Under the pieces are notes generated by a model. It saw only the letters and a list, made by a program, of their open reading frames with translations. It searched no databases and was not told the DNA's origin. DNA of 64,000 bases, taken from an uncultured Acidobacteriota bacterium (GTDB taxonomy: Bacteria > Acidobacteriota > Vicinamibacteria > Fen-336). Shown in pieces: positions 4,920 through 63,986 of the stretch (the first letter of the stretch is position 1; each line of letters starts with the position of its first letter). The stretch is from positions 81,490 through 145,489 of the forward strand of contig CADEEV010000005.1 of assembly GCA_902826455.1 (NCBI GenBank), written 5' to 3'. Made by a program: the position numbers and the translations under genes.

Positions 4920-7093
4920 CACTGGGCTCTCCGCGCCGCGAGAGGCGCCACCGCGGGGCCGTCGTTGTTGAACAGCGTCGCGTCCTTCACGGCCGCCGCC
5001 GCGCGGTACGCCTCGGCCGCTTCCTTGCGGTACTCGCTGCCCAGGTTCTCCAGGGACAGGCCCAGGTAGTAGAGGGCCGTGCCCTGGGAGAGCCCGGGCC
5101 TCTGGGGCAGGGCCGTGCGGGCCTTGAGGAGGAAGTCGTGGGCCGCGGCGTAGTCCCCGAAGTGCATCGCGCACAAGGCGAGGTTCAGCGAGGCGAAGGC
5201 GGCTCCCTCGGTGCCCGGATAGCCTTCCGACTGTTGACGCAGGTCCATCATCACCTTGTTGTAGAGGAGGGACGGATCGTTGAGGGGGATCTCCTGGGGC
5301 GTCTGTCCCAGGACGAGCTCGACGGCGCGGCTCGTGCCGGCGGCGTTGCGCAGGTGCAGCGCCAGCTTGTCGCCGATCCGGCTCGACTCGAGGGCCGCGA
5401 GCAGGTCCGCCGTGCGCTTCACGGGCCGGCCCTCGATCGAGTACAGCACCTCGCCGGGCGCGATACCCGAGAGGGCCGCGGGGCTGCCCGGCGCCACCCG
5501 CAGCACCGGCACGCCGTCGTGGAGCAGCGTGTCCACGGTGATGAGGCCGGACCAGGGACGGTACAGGGTCACGTCCTGGTCCACGGCCGAGATGAAGCGC
5601 AGGTACGAGGCGCCCTCGTTCCAGGTCACCTCCCAGGGATCGGGCACGGCGTTGCCCGCGGCCAGCAGGTTCAGCACGGCGGTGCGCTGCAGGCGCTCGT
5701 CGGGCAGCACGGCCACGAGGAAACCCTGCACCTCGAGGGCCTCGGCCAGGCGCTCGGTCGCCTTGCGCACGACGTCGGCGTCGGCACGGTTCGCCGACAC
5801 GAGGCCGAGGCGCGTGACCTTCTCCTGCTCGAGGATGCGGTCGACCGTGTCGCGCGGGGGCGTGAAGAAGTTGAGGGTGGCGATCTTCGACAGGTTCTGG
5901 ACGAGACGCTCCTCGACGGCCGCCAGGTTGCGCTCGCCGGCGGCGCTCTGCGCCACGACGCCGAGGAACGCGAGGCTGGGCCGGATCGGACAGTCGAGCG
6001 TCAGCCCCTCGTCCTTCGCGAGCACGATGTCCTTCAGGAACTTGCCGGCCGCGTGCTTCACCTCGAGGCGGTGCTTGCCGGCGCACACGCCCTCGATCTC
6101 GCGAGGCGTCACGCCCAGGGCCTCGCCGTCGAGGAGGATGCGCGCGCCGGGGGGCTCGGAGGTCAGCGTCAAGGTGGCGAGGGACTCCTCCATGCGCACC
6201 GGCTCGGGAACGTAATCGCGCGGCTCGGGCACATCGAGGGTCACGCTCACGGTCTCGTGGCACTTCTTGCGCAGCTCGACGAGGTGGCTGCCGAGGGACA
6301 GGTTCGCGATCTCGGTGCGGGCCGAGGCACGGCCGGGATCCATGCCCTTCGCCCGGGCCATCTCGAAGAACTCCGGCGAGAGCGACCCCGACGTGACGCC
6401 ACGGGACTCGCCGTCCACCCAGATCTCGACCCCCGGCGGGTCGGTGATGAAGAAAGCGCTCGCCGCCGTCCGCACCAGCTCGACCTGCAACGTCTCCGTG
6501 GCGCGGGGCGCGATGCTCACGTTGCGGATCTCGGTCTGATAGCCCTCACGGGAGATCTCGACGCTGTACTCCCCCGCCAGGACGTCCATGGGGAAGAAGT
6601 CGCTGAGGCTCAGGAACCCCCCGTTCAGCATGACGCGGGCGCCGGCGGGACGCGAGGACACGGCCAGATAGCCTACGAGGGCCTTCTTCACCGAGCCGAA
6701 GAAGTCCACGACCTTCGGCGAGACCTTGTCCTTGCTCATGGCGTACTGGGGCTGGAGCTGGATCAGGAGCCGGAAGCTCTCCGAGGCCTTCTCCTGGAGC
6801 CCGATGTTGTAGTACGCGCGGCCACGCATCTCGTAGGACTGAACCAGGATCTCCTTGCCCCGGGGCGGCAGCGTGCCCTGCCGCCGCAGCTCCTCGAGGC
6901 GCGCGATCATGTCCTCGAAGAGCACGATCGAGCGGCTCTGCTGCGGGCCGTCGAACTCGGCCGAGGCGCGCACCAGGAGCTCCTGCACCGTCTGCATCTC
7001 GCGCTGCTGGGCCTCGCTCGCGTAGGGCGCATCCTGGCCGTAGCCGGGAGTCGCCGACAGCGCGACGAGGAGCAGGAGCAGCCCGGCCCTCAC
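4919..7093 (-). CDS. Secreted PEGA / PDZ / TPR scaffold protein
   Basis: 724 residues; GTG start overlaps the upstream stop (GTGA). A signal peptide (about 1-20, ending GYGQ) directs it across the inner membrane. Helical TPR-like repeats (about 30-115), three PEGA-type beta domains (about 141-205, 212-290 and 306-370, each with the PPG/PAG..V.[LV][DN]G pattern), a middle region of about 150 residues (AVLPDERLQ), a PDZ domain (about 519-582, VAPGSPAALSGIAPGEVLYSIEG) and C-terminal TPR helices (about 625-705). No catalytic motif, so it is a cell-envelope binding or scaffold protein. The kinase in the operon also has a PEGA-like tail, suggesting a shared surface partner. Confidence 0.85.
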   Translation of the reverse strand: MRAGLLLLLVALSATPGYGQDAPYASEAQQREMQTVQELLVRASAEFDGPQQSRSIVLFEDMIARLEELRRQGTLPPRGKEILVQSYEMRGRAYYNIGLQEKASESFRLLIQLQPQYAMSKDKVSPKVVDFFGSVKKALVGYLAVSSRPAGARVMLNGGFLSLSDFFPMDVLAGEYSVEISREGYQTEIRNVSIAPRATETLQVELVRTAASAFFITDPPGVEIWVDGESRGVTSGSLSPEFFEMARAKGMDPGRASARTEIANLSLGSHLVELRKKCHETVSVTLDVPEPRDYVPEPVRMEESLATLTLTSEPPGARILLDGEALGVTPREIEGVCAGKHRLEVKHAAGKFLKDIVLAKDEGLTLDCPIRPSLAFLGVVAQSAAGERNLAAVEERLVQNLSKIATLNFFTPPRDTVDRILEQEKVTRLGLVSANRADADVVRKATERLAEALEVQGFLVAVLPDERLQRTAVLNLLAAGNAVPDPWEVTWNEGASYLRFISAVDQDVTLYRPWSGLITVDTLLHDGVPVLRVAPGSPAALSGIAPGEVLYSIEGRPVKRTADLLAALESSRIGDKLALHLRNAAGTSRAVELVLGQTPQEIPLNDPSLLYNKVMMDLRQQSEGYPGTEGAAFASLNLALCAMHFGDYAAAHDFLLKARTALPQRPGLSQGTALYYLGLSLENLGSEYRKEAAEAYRAAAAVKDATLFNNDGPAVAPLAARRAQ

Positions 7094-8568
7094 TTGAACC
7101 TCACGATGCGCTCGGCCTTCTCGTCGTAGGCGATCACGGCGCCGTCGCCGTCGAGGGTCAGGGCCGACGGCCGGCGGAGCTCGGGGGTCGACAGGGTCAG
7201 GAGCAGGGCCCCCGCCGGGTTGAAGACGTAGACGCCTCCGTCCGCATCCGCGACGTAGGTGTTGCGGAAGGGATCGATGGCGACGTCGAGGGGCTTCTTG
7301 AGCTCGTAGCCCGCGCCGCGCGCGACGATCGAGCGCAGCAGCTTCCCGGCCTCGTCGTACACGCGCACGCTCTTCTCGTCGGTGTCGAGGAGCGCGATGC
7401 CGCCTTCGCCGTCCTGGAGGATGCGCCGGATCTCGCGCGGCCGCGCGTCGAGGAACGCGCCCTTCCACTCGAAAGCCGTGTCGTAGCGCAGCACCCGCTT
7501 GTGCTTGCCGTCGGCGATCAGGATGCTGCCCGCCTGGGTCACCGCGGCGGCCTGGATGCGGTCGAGGACCTCGAGCTCGCCGGGCTTGTCTCCGGGAGCC
7601 GCGAAGGACTTGATGTCGCGGGCGCCCACGCGGACGGCCGAGCGCGCGGCCAGCACGACCTCGTTGCGGGGCGAGAGCGTGAGGGTCCGCAGGTCTTCGC
7701 CCGACAGGGACGCGCCGCGCGTGCCGTCGAGGCCGATGGGCACGGCGCTCTTCACCTTGTCCGAGGCGATCCACAGCGTGCGCTCGGGCGTCATCAGGAT
7801 CGCGCCGACGTCCTTCAGCAGGTCGCCCGAGGCCGGGGCATACGCGACGTCGAGGCCGAAGACGGGCTTGTCGCCGCCGAAGAGCCGGTAGAGGGCGGTG
7901 GTGCGCAGGAGCGCCAGGCCGGCCCAAGAGGACTCGGGGAAGCGGTTGCGGACGTGCTGGAACCCCTCCATCGCCTGGCGGAACTCGCCCTGCAGCGCGA
8001 GGCAGTGGCCGATCTGGAACTGCGCCGCCGCGGCGACGTCGCTCGTCGGGTGCTCGAGCGAGACGCGCCGCTCCGCCTCGACGGCCTCGGCGTAGCGGCC
8101 CGCCTTGCGCTGGGCCAGGCCCGACGCGTACAGCGCCCGCGGCACCCAGTCGCTGCGCGGGTAGAGGCGCTGCACCCGGCCGAACTGCGCGAGCGCGTCG
8201 TCGATCTCGGCGGGGGCCAGCGCCCGGTTCATCGTGAGCAGGCCCAGGTAGTAGTACGCTCCCGGCGCGCCGTCGCTCTGGGGATAGCTCTTCGCCACGC
8301 GGTCGAACGCCTCGCGCGCCTTGGCGGGATCGTTCTCGACCTCGAGGTGGTAGCGGCCGATCTCGAGCCAGGCGTCGTCCACCGAGTCGGTCTGCTGGAA
8401 CCCGCTCACGATCGTGTTGAAGTTGTCGAGCGCCTGCTTGTACTGCTGCTTGAGCCAGTAGGCGCGGCCGTCCTCGAGCAGGCCCTGGGCCTGCTCGTCG
8501 GGCGAGGCCTGGGCGAGCGCCTGCCCGGTCACGAGGAGCAGTGCCGCGAGGACCCCGGCGCGCTTCAC
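7090..8568 (-). CDS. Secreted TPR + NHL-like beta-propeller protein
   Basis: 492 residues. Signal peptide 1-20 (VTGQALAQA), TPR/Sel1-like helices about 25-225 with the tol-pal YbgF-like rhythm (AREAFDRVAKSYPQSD, ALYASGLAQRKAGRYAEA), then six-bladed NHL/SMP-30-like strands to the end (VLRYD, VRVYDEAGKLL, VDVAIDPFRNTYVADADGG). Probably a periplasmic binding protein; no enzyme motif seen. The GTG start lies 3 bases after the kinase stop and its stop overlaps the PEGA/PDZ gene start, so it is a mid-operon gene. The substrate is unknown. Confidence 0.82.
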   Translation of the reverse strand: MKRAGVLAALLLVTGQALAQASPDEQAQGLLEDGRAYWLKQQYKQALDNFNTIVSGFQQTDSVDDAWLEIGRYHLEVENDPAKAREAFDRVAKSYPQSDGAPGAYYYLGLLTMNRALAPAEIDDALAQFGRVQRLYPRSDWVPRALYASGLAQRKAGRYAEAVEAERRVSLEHPTSDVAAAAQFQIGHCLALQGEFRQAMEGFQHVRNRFPESSWAGLALLRTTALYRLFGGDKPVFGLDVAYAPASGDLLKDVGAILMTPERTLWIASDKVKSAVPIGLDGTRGASLSGEDLRTLTLSPRNEVVLAARSAVRVGARDIKSFAAPGDKPGELEVLDRIQAAAVTQAGSILIADGKHKRVLRYDTAFEWKGAFLDARPREIRRILQDGEGGIALLDTDEKSVRVYDEAGKLLRSIVARGAGYELKKPLDVAIDPFRNTYVADADGGVYVFNPAGALLLTLSTPELRRPSALTLDGDGAVIAYDEKAERIVRFK

Positions 8569-8571
8569 GCG

Positions 8572-10197
8572 TCAGTCCTTGCGGCCGGTGACATAGGCGG
8601 GACGGCCCGGCGCGATCTCGACGCTCTCCTCGCGGCGCGTTCCGTCCGGCCACTTGAAGGCGATCGTGTGGGCGCCGGCGGCCACCGCGCGGTCGAGGAT
8701 CGGCGGATAGTCGGCGAAGGCGCCGTCGATCGAGATCTCGCAGTTGTCGGGGCTCGCCTTGATGCTGAGGCGGCCCAGGGCCGGAGCCTCGACCGTGGTG
8801 GTGGCGCCCGCCGTCACGTCCACGGTCACGGTGCGCCTGAGGAAATGGGACGGAGCCACGAGGCCCAGGCTCTGACGCCCCGGGGGCACCTGGACCTCGG
8901 CGGAGGTGGAGCCGGTCGCGAAGACCCGGCCACGCCACGAGACGTCGATCGGGTACGACGAGCGGACCTTCACGATCCCGGGCGCCGGCGCCGCGAGGCC
9001 GCTCGGCGCGCGCACGCTGGCGGGCGCAGGCGCGGCGGGCGCTCCGCTCGCGACGACCGGCGCCTGGCGGTCCTCCGTCACGGCCGTTGCGGCTGCCGGT
9101 CCCGCGCCCCGCCAGAGGGAGACGGCGAGACCGACGCCCACGAGCAGGAGCGCCGCGCCGCCGAGGACCAGGCCGCGGGCCATCGTGGCGGGCGCCGCCT
9201 CGGAGGCCGGCGCCTGGCGCGTGGGCGGCGACTGGAACGTGGCGTCGAGCTCGCTGTACGCGTCGACCTCGACGGCGCGCACGGCGCGCCGGAGGGTCCG
9301 CTCCCGGCGGCGCGCGGCGAGAGCGTCGGCGGACGCTGCCTCGGGATGCTCGCGGCGGTACACGGCCAACGCCTCCGCGAGGGCATCGGCGAAGGCCAGG
9401 GCGCTCGTGAAGCGCTGGGCCGGATCGCGGGCCAGGGCCCGGGCGACGATGCCCTCGAGGGCGGCGCTCACCGCGCCCTGCTCGACGCGCAGCGGCGCCG
9501 CATCCTCGTGGACGATCCTGAAGAGCACCTGGGTCGTGTTCTCGCCCGAGAAGGGCCGTCGCCCGGCGAGCAGCTCGTGGAGGATGACGCCCAGGGAGAA
9601 CACGTCGCTGCGGCCGTCCAGGGGCTTCGCCTGGATCTGCTCGGGGCTCATGTAGTACAGCGTGCCGAGCATCATCCCGCTCTTCGTCAGGTTCATCCCG
9701 CCGAGCTTCGCGATGCCGAAGTCCATGATCTTCACCGAGCCGTCGTCGAGGATCCGGACGTTCGTGGGCTTGATGTCGCGGTGGACGATGCCGTGCTCGT
9801 GGGCGTAGGCGAGGCCCCGGGCCACCTGGATCACCACCTCGAGGGCCTCGGGCAGGGTCAGGGGCAGCGGCGAGCGCATCACGCTCTCGAGATCGGCGCC
9901 GGGCAGCAGCTCCATCGCGATGAAGGCGACGCCACGGTCCTCGCCGAGCTCGTAGACGGTGAGGATGTTCGGGTGCTGCAGGCGGGCCGCGGCGCGCGCC
10001 TCGATCTCGAAGCGGCGCCGGCTCTCGCCGTCCAGGGTGCCCTCGAGGGTCAGGGTCTTGACGGCGACCTCGCGGTCGAGGTGCTCGTCGTGGGCCCGGT
10101 ACACCATGCCCATGCCGCCCCGTCCGAGCCGGCCCGTGACGGTGTAGCGTCCGATCCGGCGCCTGGAGCTTCCGAGGTGTGCGCTCGCGGGAGCCAC
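8572..10197 (-). CDS. Transmembrane Hanks-type Ser/Thr protein kinase (PASTA-less, PEGA-like sensor)
   Basis: 541 residues, GTG start 7 bases after the PP2C stop. Kinase domain about 17-285: glycine loop GRGGMGMVY (25-33), ATP Lys47 in AVK, catalytic HRDIKPTN (139-146), DFG (159-161), activation segment with LTKSG and SPEQ (184-187). A juxtamembrane helix rich in Arg (297-310), one membrane segment about 340-362, then an extracytoplasmic region with two beta modules (VSWRGRVFATG.., ISIDGAFADYPP) of PEGA type in place of PASTA repeats. Likely autophosphorylates and phosphorylates Thr/Ser on partners; the PP2C next door would reverse this and the FHA protein would read it. Confidence 0.95.
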   Translation of the reverse strand: MAPASAHLGSSRRRIGRYTVTGRLGRGGMGMVYRAHDEHLDREVAVKTLTLEGTLDGESRRRFEIEARAAARLQHPNILTVYELGEDRGVAFIAMELLPGADLESVMRSPLPLTLPEALEVVIQVARGLAYAHEHGIVHRDIKPTNVRILDDGSVKIMDFGIAKLGGMNLTKSGMMLGTLYYMSPEQIQAKPLDGRSDVFSLGVILHELLAGRRPFSGENTTQVLFRIVHEDAAPLRVEQGAVSAALEGIVARALARDPAQRFTSALAFADALAEALAVYRREHPEAASADALAARRRERTLRRAVRAVEVDAYSELDATFQSPPTRQAPASEAAPATMARGLVLGGAALLLVGVGLAVSLWRGAGPAAATAVTEDRQAPVVASGAPAAPAPASVRAPSGLAAPAPGIVKVRSSYPIDVSWRGRVFATGSTSAEVQVPPGRQSLGLVAPSHFLRRTVTVDVTAGATTTVEAPALGRLSIKASPDNCEISIDGAFADYPPILDRAVAAGAHTIAFKWPDGTRREESVEIAPGRPAYVTGRKD

Positions 10198-60504: not shown

Positions 60505-61617
60505 CTACTTGACGCGCTTGTAGAACGGGGTCGGAACGACGCGGGCCGGAACGAGCCGGCCGCGGATCTCCACGTCGAACTCGGTGCCGACCGCGGACTG
60601 CGCCGTGGGCAGGTAGCCGAGGCCGATGTTCTTCTGCAGGAACGGGGCGAAGGTGCCCGAGGTGACGGCGCCGACGCCCTGGCCCTTGAGCAGGATCGGA
60701 TAGCCGTGACGCGCGATGCCGCGGCCGACCATCTCGAAGCCCACCAGCTTGCGGGGCGGGCCGCTCTTCTTCTGGGGCTCGAGGACCGGGCGGCCGAGGA
60801 ACTCGCCCTTGGCCTCGTCGAGCGACACGATCCAGCCGAGACCGGCCTCGACCAGCGTGGTGCTCTCGTCCATGTCGTTGCCGTAGAGGCACATGCGGGC
60901 CTCGAGCCGCAGCGTGTCGCGGGCCCCGAGGCCGGCCGGGACGAGGCCGAGCGGCTGCCCGACCTCGATCAGCTTGCGCCAGAGCGGCTCGGCGCGGTCG
61001 GCGCTCACGAGGATCTCGAAGCCGTCCTCGCCCGTATAGCCCGTGCGCGAGACCGTGGCCTCGCTGCCGTCCACGGTGCCGGTCGCGAAGTGGTAGTAGC
61101 GGATCGACGCCAGGTCGAGGCTGGTGAGGCCCTGGAGGATCTCCTGGGACTTCGGGCCCTGGAGCGCCAACAGCGCGAACTCGTCGCTGCGGTTGCGCAG
61201 CTCGCAGCCAGTCGGCTCCTGGTCCTGCAGCCAGCGGTAGTCCTTGTCGATGTTGCTGGCGTTCACGACGAGCAGGTAGCGATCCGCCGCCCGCCGCGAG
61301 ACGATCACGTCGTCCACCGGGGCGCCCGTCGGCATCGGCAGGGCCGAGTATTGCGCCTGACCGTCCACGAGCTTCGCGACGTTGTTGGACGTGACCCGTT
61401 GCAGGAAGGCGAGGGCGCCCGGTCCCGACACCTCGAACTCGCCCATGTGGGACACGTCGAAGAGGCCGGCGGCGGTCCGGACGGCCATGTGCTCGGAGAT
61501 CAATCCCGAGTACTCGACCGGCATCTCCCAGCCGCCGAAGGGGACCATCTTGGCGCCGCTCTCGCGGTGCACGGGGTAGAGCGGCGTCTTGCGAAGGACG
61601 GAGGCGGCGCTTTCCAT
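60505..61617 (-). CDS. gcvT: Glycine cleavage system T protein (aminomethyltransferase)
   Basis: 370 residues; ATG at 61617 preferred to an in-frame TTG at 61632, which lies inside the promoter. [41 protein letters not shown], the catalytic Asp in the [20 protein letters not shown] region, [10 protein letters not shown] and [12 protein letters not shown]. Releases ammonia and forms methylene-THF, feeding the thymidylate and methionine enzymes also encoded in this window. First gene of the operon. Confidence 0.97.
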
Positions 61618-61630
61618 TCGAAGGGCGCTC

Positions 61631-61660
61631 AAGCTATCACACGGCCCGACCCAGGGTCAA
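61631..61660 (-). promoter_or_regulatory. Promoter TTGACC-N18-TAGCTT of gcvTHP
   Basis: -35 TTGACC (61660-61655), 18-base spacer, -10 TAGCTT (61636-61631), 13 bases to the gcvT ATG; predicted leader about 6 bases. The same -35 hexamer is used by thrA. Confidence 0.55.
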
Positions 61661-61671
61661 TGACTGCAGCG

Positions 61672-61686
61672 CGTTGTCCGACAACG
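61672..61686. promoter_or_regulatory. Operator candidate CGTTGTC-C-GACAACG between gcvT and the GspE-like gene
   Basis: Perfect 7-1-7 inverted repeat overlapping the -35 of the plus-strand gene and 12 bases upstream of the gcvT -35. It could control one or both divergent units. Confidence 0.45.
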
Positions 61687-61702
61687 AGTTATGGGCTATC
61701 CT
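61674..61702 (+). promoter_or_regulatory. Promoter TTGTCC-N17-TATCCT of GspE-like gene
   Basis: -35 TTGTCC (61674-61679), 17-base spacer, -10 TATCCT (61697-61702). Predicted +1 near 61709, about 24 bases before the GTG at 61733. Confidence 0.45.
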
Positions 61703-61732
61703 TGAGGCTGGTCCCTCCTCCGAAGGGTACGG

Positions 61733-63340
61733 GTGCGCGTGGCCGTCGAGACCTACATCACCACCTGCTGGAACTGCCTGGGCGACTTCGATGCGCTGAG
61801 CGCGGTCTGGTGCTCGGACGACCCCAAGAACCCCACGAAGCTCTGCCCGTTCTGCTTCCGCTGCTTCTGCGACGGCAGCGAGAAGTACAAGCAGGAGTTC
61901 TGGAAGAAGGCCCCGGCCAAGCTCGTCGAGGAGGTCCAGGTCCTGGCTCGCAGCAAGGACCGCCTGGGCGACGTGCTCATCCGCATGAAGAAGCTGCAGA
62001 CCCCGCAGCTCCTCGAGGCGCTCGTCGAGCAGAAGAACACCGGCAAGAAGCTGGGCGAGATCCTCGTCGACCGGAAGCTGGTGCGGCCCGAGGACATCGC
62101 CGCCGCCCTCAAGAGCCAGGGCGTCAGCCCGCTGACCGACACGATGGGCGCCGAGTACGCGGCGAGCCCGGTGTGGGACCAGAGCGGCCCCGACGCGATC
62201 ATCCAGTACATCCTGTCCCTCGCGGCCCGCAAGGGCGCGTCCGACGTCCACATCGAGCCCAAGGAAGACGCGATCTCGGTCAAGTACCGCATCGACGGCT
62301 TCTTCTTCCGCGTCGACCCGATCCCCAAGAGCTTCCAGGCCGCCTTCACGCAGAAGCTCTTCGAGGTCTTCCGGCTCGATCCCGAGCGCTCGACGCGCCC
62401 GCAGACGAGCCGCACGAGCGGGCGCCTCGCCGAGGGCGACTACGACCTCGTGACGCAGACGCTGCCGACGCCCCACGGCATCTCGGCCACGATCAAGCTG
62501 ATCAACCGCTCGACGTTCATCAAGGACTTCGCGACGCTGGGCCTCGAGCTCGAGGACCGCGTGCGGCTCCTCGAGGAGCTGCGCAACCACTTCGGCCTCG
62601 TGCTGGTCACGGCGCCCGTCTACAACGGCGCCGGCACCACCGCGTACTCGATCATGAACTTCCTGGCCCAGGCCCAGCGCGACGTGGTCTCGCTCGAGTC
62701 GCCGATCCACTGGCCCCTCGAGGGCGTCCGCCAGGTCGAGGTGGAGCAGGGTCCCCAGGGCCTGAAGATGGAAGAGACGCTGCGCTCGGTGGTGGCGGTG
62801 CGCCCCGAGGTCGTGATGCTGTCGTCGATCCCCGACCGGGCGACGGCGCTGCTCGCGAGCCAGCTCGCCTCGAGCGTGCTGGTCGTCGCGGTCATCCCGG
62901 GCCAGAACGCCGGGGGCGCCGTGAGCGGCCTGATCGAGATGGGCGTGCCGCCGCAGATGCTGTCCGGGGCCGTCGCGGCAGTGACCTGCCAGCGCCTGGT
63001 GCGCCAGATCTGCCGCATCTGCCGCGAGCCGGGCGAGGCTCCGGCGCCCCAGACCCTGGCAAACCACGGGATCAGCGCCGAGGAGTCGGCGAAGCTCCAG
63101 TTCTTCCGGGGCCGCGGCTGCCCCACCTGCAACAAGGTCGGCTACCGCGGCCGGCGCGCGATCTTCGAGGTCATGAACGGCGCGCCCGAGATCCGCACCT
63201 CGATCCAGAGCGGCCTGTCCGCCGCCGAGATCGAGTCGATGGCGATCGGCGCCGGCATGACGACGCTGCGCGCGCGCTGCCTGCAGCTCGTGGCCGAGGG
63301 CGCCACGACCTTCGACGAGTTCGCGAAGCTCAGGCTCTGA
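61733..63340 (+). CDS. GspE/PilB-fold protein with inactive ATP site and N-terminal zinc-ribbon-like domain
   Basis: 535 residues, GTG start. N-terminal Cys cluster (C12, C15, C27, C38, C41, C44, C46; CWNC and CPFCFRC), then a GspE_N-like region (about 75-130; RLGDVLIRMKKLQTPQLLEA, KLGEILVDRKLV), and a secretion-ATPase fold. The PilB-type core is clear (GASDVHIEPKEDAISVKYRIDG), but Walker A reads APVYNGAGTT (294-303, Lys replaced by Ala300) and the Walker B GEIRD reads SSIPD (364-368). The tetracysteine pair CRIC..CPTC (C427, C430, C463, C466) is kept. Expected not to hydrolyse ATP; may be a regulatory partner of a true pilus or secretion motor or a c-di-GMP reader. Confidence 0.87.
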   Translation: MRVAVETYITTCWNCLGDFDALSAVWCSDDPKNPTKLCPFCFRCFCDGSEKYKQEFWKKAPAKLVEEVQVLARSKDRLGDVLIRMKKLQTPQLLEALVEQKNTGKKLGEILVDRKLVRPEDIAAALKSQGVSPLTDTMGAEYAASPVWDQSGPDAIIQYILSLAARKGASDVHIEPKEDAISVKYRIDGFFFRVDPIPKSFQAAFTQKLFEVFRLDPERSTRPQTSRTSGRLAEGDYDLVTQTLPTPHGISATIKLINRSTFIKDFATLGLELEDRVRLLEELRNHFGLVLVTAPVYNGAGTTAYSIMNFLAQAQRDVVSLESPIHWPLEGVRQVEVEQGPQGLKMEETLRSVVAVRPEVVMLSSIPDRATALLASQLASSVLVVAVIPGQNAGGAVSGLIEMGVPPQMLSGAVAAVTCQRLVRQICRICREPGEAPAPQTLANHGISAEESAKLQFFRGRGCPTCNKVGYRGRRAIFEVMNGAPEIRTSIQSGLSAAEIESMAIGAGMTTLRARCLQLVAEGATTFDEFAKLRL

Positions 63341-63986
63341 CGGCCGCCAGCATCCGCTCGATCACCTGCTCGGGCGTGAGCTCCGTCGTGTCGACGAGGA
63401 GGGCGCCCGGCGCCCTCGTCAGCGGCGAGTCGCTGCGGGTCATGTCCGCGTGGTCGCGCTCGCGGATCTCGTGCTCGATGGCCGCGAGGTCAGCGGCGGC
63501 GCCCGCCGCCTGGAGTTCCGCGCGGCGTCGCTCGGCCCGGTGCCGCACGTCGGCGTCCACGTAGAACTTCACGTCCGCGTCGGGGAACACGGCGGTGCCG
63601 ATGTCGCGGCCGTCGAGCACGACGCCGCCGTCGCGCCCCAGCTCGCGCTGCCGCGCCACCATCTCGCGGCGCACGGCCGGGTGTACCGAGACGCGGGAGG
63701 CCAGGGCGCTGACGTCGCGGGTGCGGATCGACGCGGTGACGTCCTCGCCGTCGAGCAGGACCTGGCGGCCGCCCTCGCGCAGCTCGATGCGCGAGGCCTT
63801 CAGCAGCTCCGCCAGGACGGCAGCGTCACCGGCGTCGATCGACCGGCGCGAGGCCTTGAGCGCGAGGGCCCTGTACATGGCGCCGGTGTCGATGAAGACG
63901 TAGCCGAGTCGCGCCGCGAGGGCCCGGCCGGCCGTGGACTTGCCGGCCCCGGAAGGGCCGTCGATCGCGATGACGAGCGGCTTCAC
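63330..63986 (-). CDS. cmk: Cytidylate kinase
   Basis: 218 residues, GTG start at 63986. P-loop AIDGPSGAGKST, DTGAMYRALAL, VSVHPAVRREMVARQREL, DGRDIGTAVFPDADVKFYVDAD and the lid RDHADMTRSDSPL. Phosphorylates CMP and dCMP. The last 11 bases overlap the end of the convergent GspE-like gene. Only 14 bases remain beyond its start, so its upstream context and promoter are outside the window. Confidence 0.97.
   Translation of the reverse strand: MKPLVIAIDGPSGAGKSTAGRALAARLGYVFIDTGAMYRALALKASRRSIDAGDAAVLAELLKASRIELREGGRQVLLDGEDVTASIRTRDVSALASRVSVHPAVRREMVARQRELGRDGGVVLDGRDIGTAVFPDADVKFYVDADVRHRAERRRAELQAAGAAADLAAIEHEIRERDHADMTRSDSPLTRAPGALLVDTTELTPEQVIERMLAAVRA

Follow-up and report, generated by a model that had tools for sequence, protein, structure and literature searches.

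A PilB/GspE homologue of Acidobacteriota that lacks its catalytic residues and carries a cysteine-rich head and an MshEN-type motif

PilB and other traffic ATPases have a known role as motors and, in M. xanthus, a second one in signalling. A member of this family that has lost its catalytic motifs raises the question of whether it is a decaying relic or a protein maintained for some other role, and if the latter, which. Such a gene lies in the window, the whole 64,000-nucleotide stretch of DNA from an uncultured Acidobacteriota bacterium (Vicinamibacteria) that was analyzed here. Open reading frame analysis places a GspE/PilB homologue of 535 residues at 61733–63340 on the plus strand, between gcvT and cmk, in agreement with the initial annotation of this DNA. 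An alternative GTG start at 61739 agrees with orthologue starts such as MAFETY. The protein has three parts: a Cys-rich head (residues ∼6–72), an MshEN motif pair (77–129) and a T2SSE domain (156–530). Homologues carrying this head are referred to as headed, and residue counts compare 43 full-length headed homologues, drawn from across Acidobacteriota, with 19 intact PilB/GspE proteins. Families f1, f10, f19, f24, f30, f38 and f60 and genus g7 are working labels. The features of the locus are as follows:

60505–61632, minus strand: gcvT, divergent neighbor (TIGR00528, 440 bits), kept in families f1, f10, f30 and f60
61633–61732, no strand assigned: divergent gcvT/head-gene promoter region, aligned with that of orthologues and containing the palindrome CGTTGTCCGACAACG at 61672–61686
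61733–63340, plus strand: headed pseudo-PilB/GspE gene, GTG start, 535 residues
61748–61948, plus strand: N-terminal Cys-rich head, residues 6–72, with C12, C15, C27, D29, C38, C41, C44 and C46
61961–62119, plus strand: MshEN-type c-di-GMP motif pair, residues 77–129 (24 + 5 + 24), scoring 55.5 bits with NF053729 (cut-off 38)
62198–63322, plus strand: T2SSE (PilB/GspE) domain, residues 156–530, PF00437 at 2.6e-59, AlphaFold model resembling PilB 5tsh
62612–62641, plus strand: destroyed Walker A, APVYNGAGTT (294–303), Lys replaced by Ala300; Lys in 0/43 headed and 19/19 intact proteins
62690–62710, plus strand: degenerate Asp box SLESPIH (320–326); equivalents of Asp323 and Glu326 in 0/43, Glu322 retained in 88%
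62804–62842, plus strand: degenerate Walker B region PEVVMLSSIPDRA (358–370); catalytic Glu365 retained in only 21% of headed homologues
63011–63130, plus strand: tetracysteine C427, C430, C463, C466, kept in 86–88% of headed homologues and in all intact relatives
63330–63986, minus strand: cmk, convergent neighbor (TIGR00017, 235 bits), its 3′ end overlapping that of the headed gene by 11 bp

The motor body and its catalytic residues

Membership in the T2SSE family is clear, as the PF00437 match over residues 156–530 scores 201 bits against a curated cut-off of 24.9. The AlphaFold model (mean pLDDT 77.8) has a PilB-like body that Foldseek aligned with Geobacter PilB 5tsh at a TMt of 0.90 and an rmsd of 2.5 Å, and the top PDB matches of the protein were PilF, PilB and GspE. 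Scores against the NCBIfam equivalogs TIGR02538 (253 bits) and TIGR02533 (249.7 bits) fell below the respective cut-offs of 675.65 and 630.25 bits.

Alignment with the 19 intact relatives bore out the motif changes read by the initial annotation: the Walker A Lys is Ala, the Walker B Gly-Glu is Ser364-Ser365, and the EDPVE of the intact Asp box reads ESPIH (322–326). The C-terminal zinc tetracysteine that it described as retained is likewise present. Catalytic loss extends across the family. The Walker A Lys is missing from every full-length headed homologue (43/43), as are several other residues expected of a functional ATPase: the Asp and the second Glu of the Asp box, Arg240, Arg367 and His382; His389 persists in ∼2% and Arg221 in ∼7%. 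Among 90 columns that are invariant in the intact relatives, 28 are lost (<15%) in the headed set, in which fold residues and the tetracysteine remain despite the catalytic loss. The initial annotation had named an intact Walker A in orthologues, or a loss limited to this genome, as evidence against a pseudo-ATPase; no orthologue among the 43 has an intact Walker A, and the loss recurs in other genomes.

Within the family of the source genome, 9 of the 13 other genomes carry an orthologue, as do four from a second family of the class, and the named orthologue records are Vicinamibacteria or Acidobacteria MAGs. A profile of the head matches 47 of 396 sampled Acidobacteriota genomes, in some of which the sole head sits on a response regulator. 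A search of three genomes from genus g7 of the same family did not recover the gene, so it is dispensable. In a tree, one branch with 100/100 support parts 39 headed from 19 intact T2SSE domains. A single loss is the simplest reading of this split, not a proof, since the root of the tree is not fixed.

Close pairs of headed genes gave Nei-Gojobori dN/dS values of 0.16 (L013/L014), 0.19 (L017/L018) and 0.07 (L020/L021, with dS near saturation), and three further close pairs gave 0.19, 0.18 and 0.12. Comparison of the window gene with its nearest, more distant relatives gave 0.37–0.40; every value is below 1. The strongest constraint in the two closest same-family pairs falls on the head (pN/pS 0.07–0.09). 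That purifying selection maintains these pseudo-ATPases is therefore well supported by the coding sequences, in line with the initial view of a pseudo-ATPase that is conserved and not decaying.

Several headed proteins depart from the common form. In six loci of family f30 (L075–L080) the T2SSE match ends ahead of the tetracysteine, apparently with replacement or loss of the C-terminal part. A very divergent headed protein (L087:2496–4142, plus strand) has no Pfam T2SSE match at E≤0.1; its C-terminal CxxC...CxxC pair resembles the tetracysteine. Two loci carry two tandem headed pseudo-PilB paralogues, both lacking the Walker A Lys (L050:5524–7251 and 7261–9135; L051:4215–5927 and 5937–7787), near aspS/hisS-like genes named by eye.

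The Cys-rich head and the MshEN motif

The seven-Cys cluster noted in the initial annotation is present at positions 12, 15, 27, 38, 41, 44 and 46; an eighth Cys, found at position 29 in most other lineages, is replaced by Asp in the window protein. W26, F56-W57 and A60-P61 are invariant, and with 24 of the 58 columns that are invariant in 18 homologues the head (first 72 residues) is the most conserved part of the protein. It is an undescribed domain, absent from Pfam and NCBIfam: no model of either collection matched it (none at E≤1 for the window protein, and sub-threshold 14-bit matches only for L084 and L087). No convincing PDB fold match was found for the head with a head+MshEN model, for which the Foldseek/VIA rows covered mostly residues 75–136. 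The Cys pattern suggests that the head probably binds metal. A zinc-ribbon-like head, as first proposed, is plausible on the same grounds, but no Pfam zinc-ribbon family scores above its gathering threshold.

The same Cys pattern, followed by an FW..AP-like tail, is found on response-regulator receivers at nine further loci (L082, L083, L085, L086, L088–L090, L095 and L096). PF00072 was confirmed for two of these, L082 from the window's own genome and L083, and the remaining ones were assigned by sequence. The head also occurs on proteins of ∼220–230 residues in family f38 that consist of head and MshEN without an ATPase domain (L084:1547–2242 and L094:1770–2435, both minus strand). Its recurrence on receiver (REC) and MshEN-only proteins is the main reason for reading the head as an adaptor.

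In the window's genome the second headed protein (L082:4490–5122, minus strand; G000:C10:21189–21821) has the head fused to an intact-looking REC, and its gene lies immediately downstream of the gene for a putative sodium/solute symporter (L112:1695–3152, named by eye). Several headed REC genes adjoin receiver-like or kinase-like ORFs, as judged by eye from their first residues. When genome contigs were searched with two strict peptides, matches were confined to Acidobacteriota, although with so narrow a query a wider spread is conceivable. A mobile origin was considered and rejected: plasmids gave no head match, and the second query matched only the MshEN region.

Between head and body lies a feature that the initial annotation had overlooked, an MshEN motif of the exact 53-residue architecture, defined as two (R/K/L)LGxx...LxxxLxxQ 24-mers with a 5-residue spacer. 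The 24-mers R77–Q100 and K106–Q129 fit this consensus, with Ile122 replacing one Leu. As read from the alignment, motif I has all six of the key residues named in PMC5013675 (R77, L78, G79, L93, L97 and Q100). Motif II begins with K106, a Lys for Arg that the extended consensus permits (R/K/L at the first position; PMC11731258), and its first Leu is I122. NF053729 matched all 18 family members scanned. In the predicted head+MshEN structure, the MshEN part superposes on c-di-GMP-bound PilF-GSPIIB and on MshE with an rmsd of ∼1–2 Å over 53–59 residues. The two turn glycines (G18 and G47) are replaced by Lys86 in motif I and Lys115 in motif II, the second position being Gly in many orthologues. 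Because of these substitutions, c-di-GMP binding by the window protein is likely but not certain. The remainder of the MshEN/N1 domain is missing in f1 and f10 and present in f19, f30, f24 and others.

Genomic context and possible roles

PilB and GspE ATPases are usually, not obligatorily, encoded in or near a pil or gsp locus. Consistent with the initial annotation, the neighbors of the headed gene at the loci examined, part of which were family-scanned, yielded no identified pil or gsp gene. A PilT match at E <∼1e-100 was found in 46 of 47 head-positive genomes and in ∼290 of 349 others (Fisher p=0.004), a comparison in which the strong/weak split was counted by eye, phylogeny is a confounder and genomes with the head only on a response regulator are included. 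PilT is too common in the phylum for a strong test, and its co-occurrence with the head is only suggestive. The original proposal of a regulator or adaptor of a pilus motor thus divides in two: the regulatory or adaptor part gains from the MshEN motif in 18/18 members and from the head on REC and MshEN-only proteins, while a pilus motor as the target is plausible but unproven, as no pilus neighbors were identified and the PilT signal is only suggestive.

The account that we favor, and consider somewhat probable, is that of a conserved PilB/GspE-family pseudoenzyme that no longer hydrolyzes, and probably no longer binds, ATP and serves in signalling or as a scaffold. The Cys-rich head, probably metal-bound, would dock on a shared partner, and the MshEN motif would bind c-di-GMP. 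The dead motor body, which may oligomerize and be fixed in one nucleotide-free-like conformation, would pass c-di-GMP occupancy to the partner, for which the machinery of the pilus or of type II secretion and a polysaccharide pathway are candidates. More tentatively, one metal-binding head might dock phosphorelay receivers, c-di-GMP-binding MshEN proteins and the dead pilus-motor body on the same partner in Acidobacteriota, and the inputs from c-di-GMP and from phosphorelays would thereby converge via a natural pseudo-motor.

An alternative is that the dead subunit restrains the motor by entering mixed hexamers with intact PilB or GspE. The window's own genome encodes several intact PilB/GspE proteins, the fold and tetracysteine are retained, and the PilT association points in the same direction. 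However, that association is confounded as described above, the headed proteins are far from PilB (branch length 1.02), and head+MshEN proteins without any ATPase domain exist. The conserved arginines are also lost (R221, R240 and R367), so the headed protein is an unlikely source of a trans-acting finger. We regard mixed hexamers as unlikely.

A role tied to glycine cleavage or one-carbon metabolism, and not to pili, is suggested by the divergent gcvT, which is found at 12 or more of 27 loci in four families (f1, f10, f30 and f60), two of them outside the window's class; the count is a lower bound, as some gcvT copies and the gene in the window escaped automated ORF picking, and the window genes were entered by hand. 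In other lineages, however, the neighbors are unrelated housekeeping genes (aspS/hisS, named by eye, gltX-pgm, icd, selA, pyruvate kinase and speE), and adjacency can be inherited without functional meaning. We regard such a tie as improbable.

The intergenic region was originally credited with a promoter and an operator of its own. Its promoter-like layout looks conserved within the family on one reading of an alignment of 200-bp upstream windows, which were taken from match starts with approximate orthologue start codons; a sigma-70 scan of the region gave nothing above threshold. The operator did not hold up. The palindrome CGTTGTCCGACAACG occurs in perfect form only once in the genome, and the aligned orthologues do not retain it as a perfect palindrome; an operator or regulon was therefore rejected.

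It is improbable that nucleotide is still bound or hydrolyzed through a non-canonical site. A P-loop-shaped loop does persist, since P295, G299, T303 and E322 are kept in 88–100% of headed homologues, but the sampled family as a whole lacks the Lys, both distal acids of the Asp box, R240, R367 and His382. It is conceivable that some members still bind nucleotide, because 21% keep the Walker B Glu and in one lineage (L104:6815–8776, minus strand) the Walker A reads GPVMSGRTTT, where Arg takes the place of the Lys in what may be an intermediate. A decaying pseudogene or an assembly artefact, which the lost catalytic motifs might suggest, is rejected as highly improbable in view of full-length open frames in dozens of genomes, dN/dS well below 1 and an invariant head.

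If the favored signalling or scaffold role is correct, a natural lineage that has kept the body and the c-di-GMP motif and lost the motor would separate the motor and signalling roles of PilB, allowing the latter to be studied alone. Through its partner, the shared and uncharacterized head domain may connect two-component signalling with c-di-GMP in this little-studied phylum.

Comparison with known systems

The headed protein shares the T2SSE fold, the tetracysteine and an MshEN-type motif with PilB and PilF (Geobacter PilB 5tsh, Thermus PilF 5oiu). It differs from them in lacking the Walker A Lys, the distal Asp-box acids, the His box and conserved Arg residues, and in having a Cys-rich head; no pil genes were identified beside its gene. 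With GspE (V. cholerae GspE/EpsE 1p9r, 4ksr) it has the N2D+CTD fold in common at ∼28% identity; unlike GspE it lacks catalytic residues and carries the Cys-rich head, again with no pil genes identified nearby, and in the window's class the head and the 53-residue MshEN motif stand in place of the N-terminal domain. The MshEN receptors (V. cholerae MshE 5htl, PilF-GSPIIB 8pdk) have the same 24 + 5 + 24 pair, on which the predicted helices superpose, whereas the window protein has Lys at the turn glycines and f1 and f10 lack the rest of MshEN/N1. The headed response regulators of Acidobacteriota have the same head and FW..AP-like tail, with REC replacing MshEN and T2SSE.

A search of openly accessible papers found no description of a natural pseudo-PilB. 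One counterpart is M. xanthus PilB K327A, in which the Walker A Lys is likewise changed to Ala: this mutant has no ATPase activity, acts as a signal, and supports EPS production more than wild type does without pilA, and the nucleotide-free form of PilB has been proposed as the signalling state (PMC5544727). K327A is a laboratory mutant of an active PilB, and a Cys head is not described there (PMC5544727). It is a precedent for a signalling pseudo-motor of the kind that the headed proteins appear to represent.
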